This document shows, piece by piece, positions 4,571 through 14,901 of a stretch of DNA of 23,162 nucleotides (positions within the stretch are counted from its first letter, which is position 1; each line of letters starts with the position of its first letter). Origin of the DNA: a virus; IMG/VR virus record IMGVR_UViG_3300008221_001524, positions 1 to 23,162 of that record; one strand, given 5' to 3'. The notes below the pieces were generated by a model, which searched no databases, had not been told where the DNA came from, and saw only the letters and a list, made by a program, of their open reading frames with translations. The position numbers and the translations under genes are program-made.

Positions 4571-5797
4571 TTATGGTCCGACAGTTAGTGAGCCTTTAAC
4601 GAACGCTTGGGGACGATAAACTGCCAGTGCCAATCGCTCTTCAGCCCGGACCGAGACCATGTTCTTTTCAAAGTCATCGGCGTTCTCAGTAGAGATAACG
4701 ACGTTAGCATCTTCACGGTCAAAAATTTGCGCAGCATCTGCAAACGAGCCCGTTAAGAAATTACCAAGCATGCCAGCCTGATTAGTCTGAGCAACTGGCA
4801 GACCCCATAGGCGCGCTTCTAACGTGCCAAACGGATTGCTGAACAAGTAGCCTTTGGTATTGGCATCTTTGATCAGCTCAATATCAGTCCAATCAATATC
4901 ATGCATGACGTGACCAGTTGCTGATAGTTCTGCCAAGGTGACCTGCAGCATTGCCAAACGCATCACATCCAAACTATTGGAAGGCGTGGTCTTAGTGCTA
5001 GGATTAGCAAAAGCAGTCGCTTGCGTATAAATACCGTGCAAATTGTTACCCACGCCACTACCAAATAGCAGCTGAGTATCTTCCACACGCTTCAAGCCAT
5101 TAAGCAAACGGCCATTAATGATGCTACGCAGCTGTGGCAAATCATCAAGCGTCTGCTTGGCGATTTTCATCAAGTGAGCAACCGTCTTAACACCAGACAA
5201 CACTTCTTCAAACGTGATTTCTGAATAAGGCTTGGTCGTATTTTCAGCGACCGGTGCAGCGTTGTTCGTAAACAACAATTCACGCAGATATGCCACGGCA
5301 TTTGATTCAGTATCACCAGGTGCCAATAAATCACGAACCGTTAAGCGCTGATTTGGATTGGTGATAATCTTGGTGCTACCATCAACTGGATTCACAGCGA
5401 ATGAAGTCAGCGCGTTACGTGGCATGTCGATTGCCAAGCGGCGACCAGCGGAGACGTTTTTACTAAATTCAATCATTGCTTCATCAACAATAACCAAATC
5501 ACCTGCACGATTCTTCGCAGGCGATTGACCACCATTATTACCAAGGCGCGCAAACATCTGCTCAGCTTCGCCCAATTGGGTTGCTAGTTGGTTCTGTAGG
5601 TCACGCTGAGTATTTAAGTCGGTAAGCAACTTATCCACATCATTTTTGGTTTTCTCTGACAGGTCACCCGCTTTCTTTGCTTCTTTCAAAGCATTTTCGG
5701 CTGCCGGCAGCGCTTTTTCAGTCAGCTCTTTGACGCTAGCATTGACCAGCTTTAGCTGATTGGCCACGTCGTCTTTTTTGATATCTTCAGGATCCAT
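4571..5797 (-). CDS. Major capsid protein, HK97 fold
   Basis: About 408 aa. The first ~90 residues are a charged, helical delta/scaffold-like region (L-K-L-V-N-A-S-V-K-E-L, then Q-R-D-L-Q-N-Q-L). In HK97 relatives this part is removed by the phage protease, here encoded just upstream. The remainder carries features of HK97-type capsids: L-L-A-P-G-D-T-E-S-N-A-V and W-G-L-P-V-A-Q-T. I chose the ATG at 5797, which has GTGAG upstream. An earlier ATG at 5824 lies inside a terminator hairpin and has no ribosome binding site. The gene is bracketed by terminators at 5810-5833 and 4512-4545, so its message may be set apart from the rest of the operon. Confidence 0.9.
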   Translation of the reverse strand: MDPEDIKKDDVANQLKLVNASVKELTEKALPAAENALKEAKKAGDLSEKTKNDVDKLLTDLNTQRDLQNQLATQLGEAEQMFARLGNNGGQSPAKNRAGDLVIVDEAMIEFSKNVSAGRRLAIDMPRNALTSFAVNPVDGSTKIITNPNQRLTVRDLLAPGDTESNAVAYLRELLFTNNAAPVAENTTKPYSEITFEEVLSGVKTVAHLMKIAKQTLDDLPQLRSIINGRLLNGLKRVEDTQLLFGSGVGNNLHGIYTQATAFANPSTKTTPSNSLDVMRLAMLQVTLAELSATGHVMHDIDWTDIELIKDANTKGYLFSNPFGTLEARLWGLPVAQTNQAGMLGNFLTGSFADAAQIFDREDANVVISTENADDFEKNMVSVRAEERLALAVYRPQAFVKGSLTVGP

Positions 5798-13396: not shown

Positions 13397-13570
13397 TCAC
13401 TTTTGAACAACCCGATGCATTCGCTTGAAATCATCGGCTGTCATATCGACCTTACTGCCATCTGCATAAGTGACAGCGACTTTGGTGCTGCCGGTATATT
13501 CAGACTTCTGTACTACTTTGCCGTTGGCTCTGTGCTCTGTGATTGTTCCCGTGCCAGTTTTAATACTCAT
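13397..13570 (-). CDS. Small early protein (57 aa)
   Basis: Short frame with an excellent AGGAGG ribosome binding site and an ATGA overlap with the stop of the replication gene (13567-13570). The product is basic and beta-rich in the first half (G-T-G-T-I-T-E-H, K-V-V-Q-K-S-E-Y-T-G, K-V-A-V-T-Y-A-D-G) and ends in a helix (D-D-F-K-R-M-H-R). It looks like a small beta-sheet nucleic-acid-binding protein, but that is only an impression. No family known to me. Confidence 0.75.
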   Translation of the reverse strand: MSIKTGTGTITEHRANGKVVQKSEYTGSTKVAVTYADGSKVDMTADDFKRMHRVVQK

Positions 13571-14901
13571 ACCGCCTCCTGCATTTGGTTTAATAATCTG
13601 TCGTAAGCTTCGTCCTGCATTTCACCAGGCATCTGCTGTTGAGCGATGTACTCATAGGTTTCTTGTACACTCATACCAGGCAAAGGCTCTCTCCATAAAC
13701 CATTCAACATAACCGACACGCTTGGATCACGTTTGGCTTGGATAGTTGGTTTGGCATGGCTTTGATGAAATACAGGTGGTAAATCACTATCAAAATTTGA
13801 GTTACCTTTGTTTGCAGTAGTACCCCATTCTTCATTGTCTGTAGAGAAACGACCTTTGGCTTTTTCCTGACGTGCTTGATTGGCTTTTTGGTTATCTGCT
13901 TCGCGCATCATCCATTTGATGAGCTTTACTTTGCGATAAGAATCTGTAGTCAGTGGATTGCCTTTGAGCGCCTGCTCAGCGTAATGAGATTTGAACGCAC
14001 CAATCTCAAACTGATACTGATCATCGTTAAGCTGAATCAGCTTGCCAGCCTTGAACAACTCACCGCGCATTTCATCGATAGTTGGTGCTTCCCAGTTTTC
14101 GATATCATCTGCACGTTGGTCACGTATCTGATCGGCTTTGGTTGCTGGTTGGTTGGCTGATGATTGAGGTGCTACTGGTACAGGTTTATTTGCATCAGTA
14201 GAGTTATCCACAGAATTACCAACAACCGAGTTTTCCTCGTGTGTTCGCGAGTCCTCACTAACTGGTTTATGGTTATTGGTTTCTGGTTCATAGTTACTAG
14301 TTATAGCAGCGTTTTTTGCGTTACTATCGTTACATGGCTCATTGTTATTCGTTACAGTTTCCGTTACATCGGTTGTAACGTTACTTGCAATAGTGTCGGC
14401 GTGAGTTGCATATAACTCTCTTAGGTCAGCAGCTTTAATACTCTTATCTACTGTCACACCTATATTAATAAGACTATCAATCATTAACTTACGGTCTTGG
14501 CGTGATTTACGAGTACGTTCAGCAGCAGTCATCGGTGTGTCGTCATCGTTACACGTAACGTTACTTGGCGTTACGCCTTGCGTTACATCAAACGTTACAG
14601 CGTTACCACTTGCGTTACTGTTTTTGAATTTGTAGTTTTTAATCTCTCTATCGATACGATGATGGTGATGACGCTTACCACGTTTGACAAAATACTCATC
14701 AAGGATGTATTCAAGCATTGCGCGATATTCAGGCGTAGTACATAGCAGACGACGAGCCAGCCTATCCATATCTGATGTGTCGATGGCTTGTTCATTGTGG
14801 TAGTACATATCTATCAGGTCGCGATAGATGGCACGCTCAGGCAATAACAGATGACGTGTTGAATTGTTAAAGTCAGCAGGATTGAACATATAAAAATGCA
14901 T
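13567..14901 (-). CDS. Replication protein, DUF1376 plus DnaT-like domain
   Basis: A 444-aa protein. Residues 1-90 are a clear DUF1376 (YdaU) domain: M-F-N-P-A-D-F, L-L-L-P-E-R-A-I-Y-R-D-L-I-D-M-Y-Y, then L-A-R-R-L-L-C. A Ser/Asn/Thr-rich linker spans about 95-265. Residues ~270-340 resemble the DnaT DNA-binding domain: W-E-A-P-T, G-K-L-I-Q-L, F-E-I-G-A-F-K-S-H-Y, R-K-V-K-L-I-K-W-M. It probably starts phage DNA replication by loading host primosome proteins. The linker DNA carries two clusters of GTAACG iterons (14319-14384, 14547-14618), recalling the origin inside lambda gene O. Its ATG overlaps the stop of the Rha gene by one base (TAATG). Confidence 0.85.
   Translation of the reverse strand: MHFYMFNPADFNNSTRHLLLPERAIYRDLIDMYYHNEQAIDTSDMDRLARRLLCTTPEYRAMLEYILDEYFVKRGKRHHHHRIDREIKNYKFKNSNASGNAVTFDVTQGVTPSNVTCNDDDTPMTAAERTRKSRQDRKLMIDSLINIGVTVDKSIKAADLRELYATHADTIASNVTTDVTETVTNNNEPCNDSNAKNAAITSNYEPETNNHKPVSEDSRTHEENSVVGNSVDNSTDANKPVPVAPQSSANQPATKADQIRDQRADDIENWEAPTIDEMRGELFKAGKLIQLNDDQYQFEIGAFKSHYAEQALKGNPLTTDSYRKVKLIKWMMREADNQKANQARQEKAKGRFSTDNEEWGTTANKGNSNFDSDLPPVFHQSHAKPTIQAKRDPSVSVMLNGLWREPLPGMSVQETYEYIAQQQMPGEMQDEAYDRLLNQMQEAV
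14319..14384 (-). repeat. Iteron cluster 1 (five GTAACG)
   Basis: GTAACG read on the minus strand begins at 14324, 14333, 14355, 14367 and 14384. One copy is part of the perfect palindrome GTAACGTTAC (14375-14384). It lies within the linker of the replication gene. Copies fall in two reading frames (GTA ACG and xGT AAC G), so they are not simply a peptide repeat. Confidence 0.7.
14547..14618 (-). repeat. Iteron cluster 2 (seven GTAACG, about 12-base spacing)
   Basis: Seven copies of GTAACG on the minus strand at plus-strand starts 14547, 14559, 14569, 14581, 14593, 14601 and 14613 (spacing 12, 10, 12, 12, 8, 12). A second perfect palindrome GTAACGTTAC lies at 14555-14564. Copies are in two codon frames. 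Regular spacing near one helical turn suggests a protein-binding array, probably the replication origin. Confidence 0.75.

Follow-up and report, generated by a model that had tools for sequence, protein, structure and literature searches.

In bacteriophage lambda, the origin of replication lies in the middle of the initiator gene: iterons and an adjoining, easily melted tract are in the part of the gene that encodes the linker between the protein's domains, and the gene belongs to an early operon, behind the repressor genes (PMC7466680). In iteron plasmids and at ori2 of Vibrio cholerae, the initiator binds iterons as double-stranded DNA and also binds one strand of the DNA unwinding element (DUE), with a sequence preference; the DUE of ori2 contains a short repeated motif (PMC10797057). 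For the Obolenskvirus phages Brutus and Scipio, the proposed origin is a set of direct repeats, 9 to about 20 bp long, that lie midway along the replication protein gene, itself upstream of the helicase gene (PMC10888812). Here, we describe a candidate origin within a DUF1376 gene of the IMG/VR virus record IMGVR_UViG_3300008221_001524. We analyzed positions 1 to 23,162 of this record (the window), which is a viral contig (a fragment) with the layout of a temperate phage, and whose nearest relatives are Psychrobacter prophages. As in lambda, the window has iterons and a putative melted tract between coding regions for folded domains, behind repressor genes. Like iteron plasmid origins and ori2, it has iterons, a DnaA box, and a candidate DUE. 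We think it likely that a temperate Psychrobacter-type phage starts its replication at this site, inside its own initiator gene, and does so by the mechanism proposed below.

Repeats within the DUF1376 gene

Along the coding strand of the gene, the elements are in this order: DUF1376 domain, iteron cluster, basic helical module, second iteron cluster, AACCA ladder, DnaA box, and C-terminal domain. Their positions in the window are:

13567 to 14901, minus strand: DUF1376 gene, a putative replication initiator of 444 amino acids (open reading frame; PF07120, E = 1.7e-21; phrog_6950, E = 1.1e-128)
14617 to 14901, minus strand: DUF1376 domain, residues 1-95, predicted winged-helix topology (AlphaFold2)
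14547 to 14618, minus strand: iteron cluster adjoining the DUF1376 domain, 7 GTAACG plus 1 on the opposite strand (motif count)
14555 to 14564, no strand: palindrome GTAACGTTAC (sequence)
14383 to 14535, minus strand: small basic helical module, about residues 123-173 (AERTRKSRQDRKLM...LRELYATH), between the clusters, candidate iteron reader (AlphaFold2; module type tracks iteron type)
14319 to 14384, minus strand: second iteron cluster, 5 GTAACG plus 1 on the opposite strand (motif count)
14375 to 14384, no strand: palindrome GTAACGTTAC (sequence)
14263 to 14288, minus strand: ladder of four AACCA units in exact 7-bp steps, a candidate DNA unwinding element or site of single-strand binding (sequence; conservation in the family)
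14204 to 14212, minus strand: perfect DnaA box, TGTGGATAA on the coding strand or TTATCCACA on the plus strand, 55 bp beyond the last ladder unit (sequence)
13855 to 14139, minus strand: C-terminal helical domain, residues 255-349, possible helicase-loading part (AlphaFold2 helices, pLDDT mostly 77-88; pLDDT is the predicted local distance difference test)

A first-pass annotation of the window had reported 12 minus-strand copies of GTAACG in 300 bases, in clusters of five and seven that each contain a perfect palindrome, and our recount agrees. The 12 copies are at 14319-14618, and plus-strand copies at 14375 and 14555 complete the two palindromes. The rest of the 23 kb window has just six further copies, scattered as the annotation had said, and its expectation of about 0.15 copies per 300 bases is correct for even base composition. 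The window's total of 20 copies compares to 7.7 expected and to a maximum of 19 over 100 shuffles. Spacing in the cluster of seven is indeed mostly 12 bases (four of the six gaps: 12, 8, 12, 12, 10, and 12), while the gaps in the cluster of five are 17, 12, 22, and 9. As for the extent of the origin, 14319-14618 is right for the iterons, but the candidate origin extends further, to the ladder and the DnaA box.

Because the 12 copies use two codon frames (five in one and seven in the other), and because they exceed a synonymous null, selection on the iterons acts at the level of the DNA, as had been proposed, and not just on a Val-Thr peptide. In 5,000 synonymous-codon shuffles within the gene, which hold the peptide and the codon usage constant, the mean was 3.66 copies (standard deviation 1.40) and the maximum was 8.

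The repeats had been placed in the linker between the protein's folded domains, and the AlphaFold2 model bears this out. PF07120 (DUF1376) matches the N-terminus with 76.8 bits (the curated cut-off is 30.1) and covers profile positions 1-85 of 86. The model was built from 32 homologues and has a mean pLDDT of 66.8. In the DUF1376 domain, it has helices at residues 20-36, 45-51, and 57-70, a hairpin at 72-79, and a helix at 81-95 (pLDDT mostly 86-94). We describe this as a winged helix from the topology of the model; a fold search of the PDB found nothing significant (best E about 1), and several of the insignificant matches were winged-helix proteins. The basic module has helices at 126-146, 157-166, and 168-173 (pLDDT about 85). 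Residues 94-123 and 175-253 are predicted to be disordered, and most of both iteron clusters, the entire ladder, and the DnaA box encode this disordered peptide, so this DNA would be the freest to serve a second purpose.

The entire protein matches phrog_6950, to which no function is assigned, and several of its weaker PHROG matches are labelled "primosomal protein." DUF1376 was the sole match in a scan of Pfam up to E = 10, with no match to the lambda O family or to a plasmid Rep family; thus the label "DnaT," which had been given to the C-terminal part, is unconfirmed. A sequence search of the PDB gave no credible match. According to family searches, the genes upstream encode an Ant/Rha antirepressor, a CII-type regulator, and an S24 repressor, which puts the putative initiator gene in the position of lambda O. 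Downstream are two small open reading frames (ORFs) without family matches and then a Holliday junction resolvase.

In close relatives, the iterons are either kept or replaced. Arrays of 13-16 copies of GTAACG are present in 8 of 13 close viral homologues. The first-pass annotation had counted loss of the repeats from close relatives as evidence against an origin, and in the other five homologues, GTAACG is indeed gone or nearly so, but it has been replaced across the array: four have GTCAC[A/G] at matching places and one has GCGAATG/ATGACGAAT. Given this replacement, the disappearance of GTAACG is a change of allele, not a loss. In the GTCAC arrays, the switch from AAC to CAC changes the encoded Ser-Asn to Ser-His, while the number and place of the repeats are kept. 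Array-wide replacement of this kind is how iterons behave, unlike a conserved peptide. Two other relatives stand out. The DUF1376 gene of L044 has 21 GTAACG, because its iteron array and basic module together form one block that is tandemly duplicated, nearly identically, which is a snapshot of array growth. Acinetobacter baumannii phage AbIPP1 (L016; PQ201581.1, 28104-29507) has a Psychrobacter-type initiator (71% identity) with 14 GTAACG, which suggests that the replication cassette was transferred between host genera.

The ladder and the iteron types across the family

The layout is conserved beyond these close relatives. For the comparison, we took 144 non-redundant DUF1376 genes (from Moraxellaceae, from other Pseudomonadota, and from viral contigs) and searched each for a ladder, which we defined as three or more AACCA with a spacing of 6-7 bp. 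Ladders were present in 106 of the 144 genes, on the coding strand every time and never on the opposite strand, while none of 150 control ORFs, taken from the same loci, has one. Across the family, the AACCA units occupy all three reading frames (243/143/111), and their gaps are 7 bp (288 cases) or 6 bp (103 cases). In the window's gene, a chain of at least four AACCA arose in 29 of 5,000 synonymous shuffles.

When the DNA of 2.9 million viral contigs was scanned blind for four successive AACCANN units, at least 120 contigs matched. Among the 120 contigs listed, 110 had the ladder within a DUF1376 ORF, in the sense direction (107 by the longest covering ORF, and 3 from a frame-by-frame check of the remainder), and another 5 had it in genes that are cut at the end of the contig and have the same linker motifs. 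By our arithmetic, fewer than one match to 20 fixed bases would be expected by chance in this many contigs. The ladder is found with several different C-terminal families, and therefore DUF1376 itself is its constant partner. Across the family, the instability of the ladder's duplex is at the 87th percentile (median) within its own gene. In the window, the ladder is A/T-rich and adjoins the iterons, which fits an easily melted tract. The ladder is probably an opening element or a binding site for one strand.

In 18 Psychrobacter-type genes, the ladder is followed, at 43-88 bp, by one or two perfect DnaA boxes. We rejected the DnaA box as a universal element, as just the Psychrobacter-type genes and one distant gene carry one. 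The window has a second perfect DnaA box at 5631-5639, in a structural gene far from the candidate origin, and this could be due to chance. A C5 run or hairpin after the ladder was rejected as a third universal element: 17 of 106 genes have it, while the shuffles give 8.8 and other parts of the genes give 1.9, so it is subgroup-specific at most. Just past the ladder, some groups have ATATATACACACAC and then GCGCGCGAG, and others have a C5-6 / G5-6 inverted repeat (L017, L094, L021, and L067). A few DUF1376 ORFs are fused to an HNH endonuclease-like part (CxxC...DHI/DHV...CxxCN) and lack both iterons and ladder (the first DUF1376 ORF of L094, with 168 amino acids; the second ORF of L197, start offset 2401; and L057). 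These might form a distinct branch of the family that has a different role.

The iteron sequence varies over the family (GTAACG, GTCAC, GTTGAAC, AACCCA, ATGCGAACG, and others), and it is paired with the basic segment that directly follows the DUF1376 domain. Among the first 137 genes, the window's type of module (class B, AERxRKSRQ...LRxLYxxH) was found with GTNAC in 40 of 44 cases, versus 1 of the 93 other genes. Similarly, the NGKKGGRPRK segment was found with AACCCA (12 of 14 versus 1 of 123), SAxARW with GCGAAC (4 of 4 versus 1 of 133), and AGKASAxxR with TCAAC/GTTGA (42 of 72 versus 4 of 65). Of the 44 class B genes, 36 have more iterons than any of 25 synonymous shuffles, as compared to 9 of 150 control ORFs, and class B genes average 0.61 DnaA boxes per gene, versus 0.08 in shuffles.

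Because the classes were first noticed in part of the same data, we ran a hold-out test with 103 further non-redundant genes, which were found by the ladder alone. The pairing held for the two classes with enough members: class A (22 of 28 versus 0 of 75, P = 2.5e-17) and class C (13 of 25 versus 2 of 78, P = 3.9e-8). For class D, it was 3 of 3 versus 2 of 100. All four of the out-of-class matches (two for C and two for D) have their own segment of that type, which our search pattern had overlooked. The hold-out set itself suggested further pairs: GKRGAAKRW with C5-rich repeats (88% versus 1%), SARNANRIK with TCAGAA (4 of 4), and, weakly, NKRIA..RE.KR with an ACGAA/GCACG motif (5 genes).

Within class B, the residue after AER is a lead as to what might determine specificity. 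It is Q or K in all 11 clear GTCAC genes; among the GTAAC genes, 22 have T, V, I, or A at this position and 5 have Q. L048 and L049 have a B-type module without a clear GTNAC array; instead, GGAACGTC occurs three times, perhaps as another allele.

Proposed mechanism and alternatives

We propose that several copies of the DUF1376 protein would bind the double-stranded GTAACG iterons via the basic helical module that is encoded between the clusters. The assembled complex, together with host DnaA at the adjacent box, would open the easily melted stretch with the AACCA ladder, and a sequence-specific contact with the ladder would hold one strand. The DUF1376 domain would most likely make this contact, because the ladder is conserved with this domain. 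The C-terminal domain might help to load the host's helicase. The sequences show the repeats, the ladder, the DnaA box, selection at the level of the DNA, a conserved layout, and a pairing of iteron type with module type; from these, we infer the activity of the origin, as well as all of the binding, opening, and loading steps.

The most serious alternative, which we consider unlikely, is that the site is an origin but that the DUF1376 winged helix reads the iterons and the basic segment is a non-specific DNA contact. The N-terminal domain of lambda O reads its iterons in this way, and the models of DUF1376 have a winged-helix topology. Also, in class A, the segment is modelled as continuing the last helix of DUF1376 (helix 80-112), so the domain and the segment may act as one unit. 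On the other hand, the DUF1376 domain of L026 or L209 is 92% identical to that of L103, yet the modules and the iterons of these genes differ, and class B genes share GTNAC even as the identity of their DUF1376 domains falls to 14%. These two findings make it improbable that the DUF1376 domain reads the iterons, and we disfavour it as the sole specificity domain. The first-pass annotation had named the replication protein itself as the likely ligand; the idea that its DUF1376 domain binds the iterons is probably wrong in detail: the type of iteron tracks the basic segment or module (in the window, the module between the clusters) instead. On a tree of DUF1376 domains, the segment class requires at least 18 changes, versus a mean of 55.7 when shuffled, so it is clustered and yet has repeatedly moved. 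When independent pairs were drawn at random on this tree, the iteron in almost all pairings either changed with the segment class or did not differ.

Several points weigh against our proposal. The tree, based on 87 columns, has poor resolution and few supported branches, and only 1-4 independent pairs per pairing sit on supported branches. The module and the iterons are neighbours in the DNA, so they would be expected to travel together by recombination even if another domain or protein read the iterons. The classes were initially defined by eye, and a minority of genes were assigned by hand besides the patterns. Class B, which is the window's own, had just two hold-out calls, one of which was a misassigned A type, so it is without independent validation. 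In genes with NQNQNQ-type linkers, the peptide alone partly predicts the ladder (the mean chain in the null was at least 3 in 19 of 144 genes). And DnaA boxes are almost wholly confined to the Psychrobacter-type genes.

It is improbable, in our view, that the ladder acts as RNA (a site for translation control, for Rho, or for a primer RNA) instead of as an unwinding or single-strand site in DNA. The ladder is always on the mRNA-sense strand (106 versus 0), and it resembles some RNA-binding arrays in its low G content and its regular spacing. But an element that acts as one strand of DNA would show an equal strand bias, and the ladder is duplex-unstable and has a fixed place directly after DNA-type iterons.

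We give still less credence to the idea that the repeats are operators for another regulator of the phage (such as the Rha/KilAC antirepressor, CI, or CII) and not an origin. Regulator genes are just upstream, and palindromic repeats can serve as operators. But across phages, the iteron type follows the segment of the same DUF1376 protein, a ladder and a DnaA box accompany the repeats, and 12-16 copies within a coding region would be unusual. Finally, disordered and repetitive linkers do expand easily, but we reject the explanation that the repeats are a mere by-product of a Val-Thr or Ser-Asn peptide, which is very improbable given the two or three codon frames per repeat, the synonymous null, and the array-wide change from GTAAC to GTCAC, which alters the peptide (N to H) and leaves the number and place of the repeats unchanged.

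Comparison with known origins

More broadly, DUF1376 proteins might be a large family of phage initiators, with a constant winged helix, a constant ladder, and an exchangeable basic segment that sets the iteron. There would be at least five, and perhaps seven, matched classes, with iterons GTTGAAC, GTNAC, AACCCA, ATGCGAACG, a C5-rich motif, and possibly GCACGAA and TCAGAA. A single recombination event would move the segment along with the adjoining iterons and change the specificity of the origin. We offer this generalization tentatively, with slightly more doubt than confidence. If it is true, then a family that is now annotated as a domain of unknown function gains a function, and origins could be located from sequence alone in hundreds of phages and prophages. 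The natural matched pairs could be used to study how a short basic helix reads DNA, and they would explain how related prophages that share a cell could avoid firing each other's origins. The strand-opening element, too, would have a concrete candidate in the AACCA ladder.

Some of this is already known: origins inside initiator genes (lambda and its relatives), initiators that bind a strand of the DUE, and the Obolenskvirus repeats as a proposed origin. In a search of the open-access literature, with preprints and most subscription papers outside its scope, we found no publication on DUF1376 as an initiator or together with "origin of replication," nor on an AACCA ladder in phages or the pairing of segment and iteron; DUF1376 is named at all in five open-access papers. 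The replication gene of Brutus and Scipio is probably a DUF1376 gene, because in KEN_01, which is a related phage, a DUF1376 gene is directly upstream of a DnaB-like helicase. The description of those phages (PMC10888812) does not name DUF1376, a ladder, or a link between the type of repeat and a protein segment.

In contrast to iteron plasmids and ori2, the window's putative initiator is unrelated by family search, and the candidate origin is inside the initiator gene. The differences from lambda are that the window's protein has no Pfam match to a replication family other than DUF1376; that the window's gene and its close homologues have 12-16 copies of a 6-bp core, while lambda has four iterons of about 18 bp; that the window has a second folded, basic module (as predicted) between two clusters, an AACCA ladder, and a DnaA box; and that its family has many iteron alleles.
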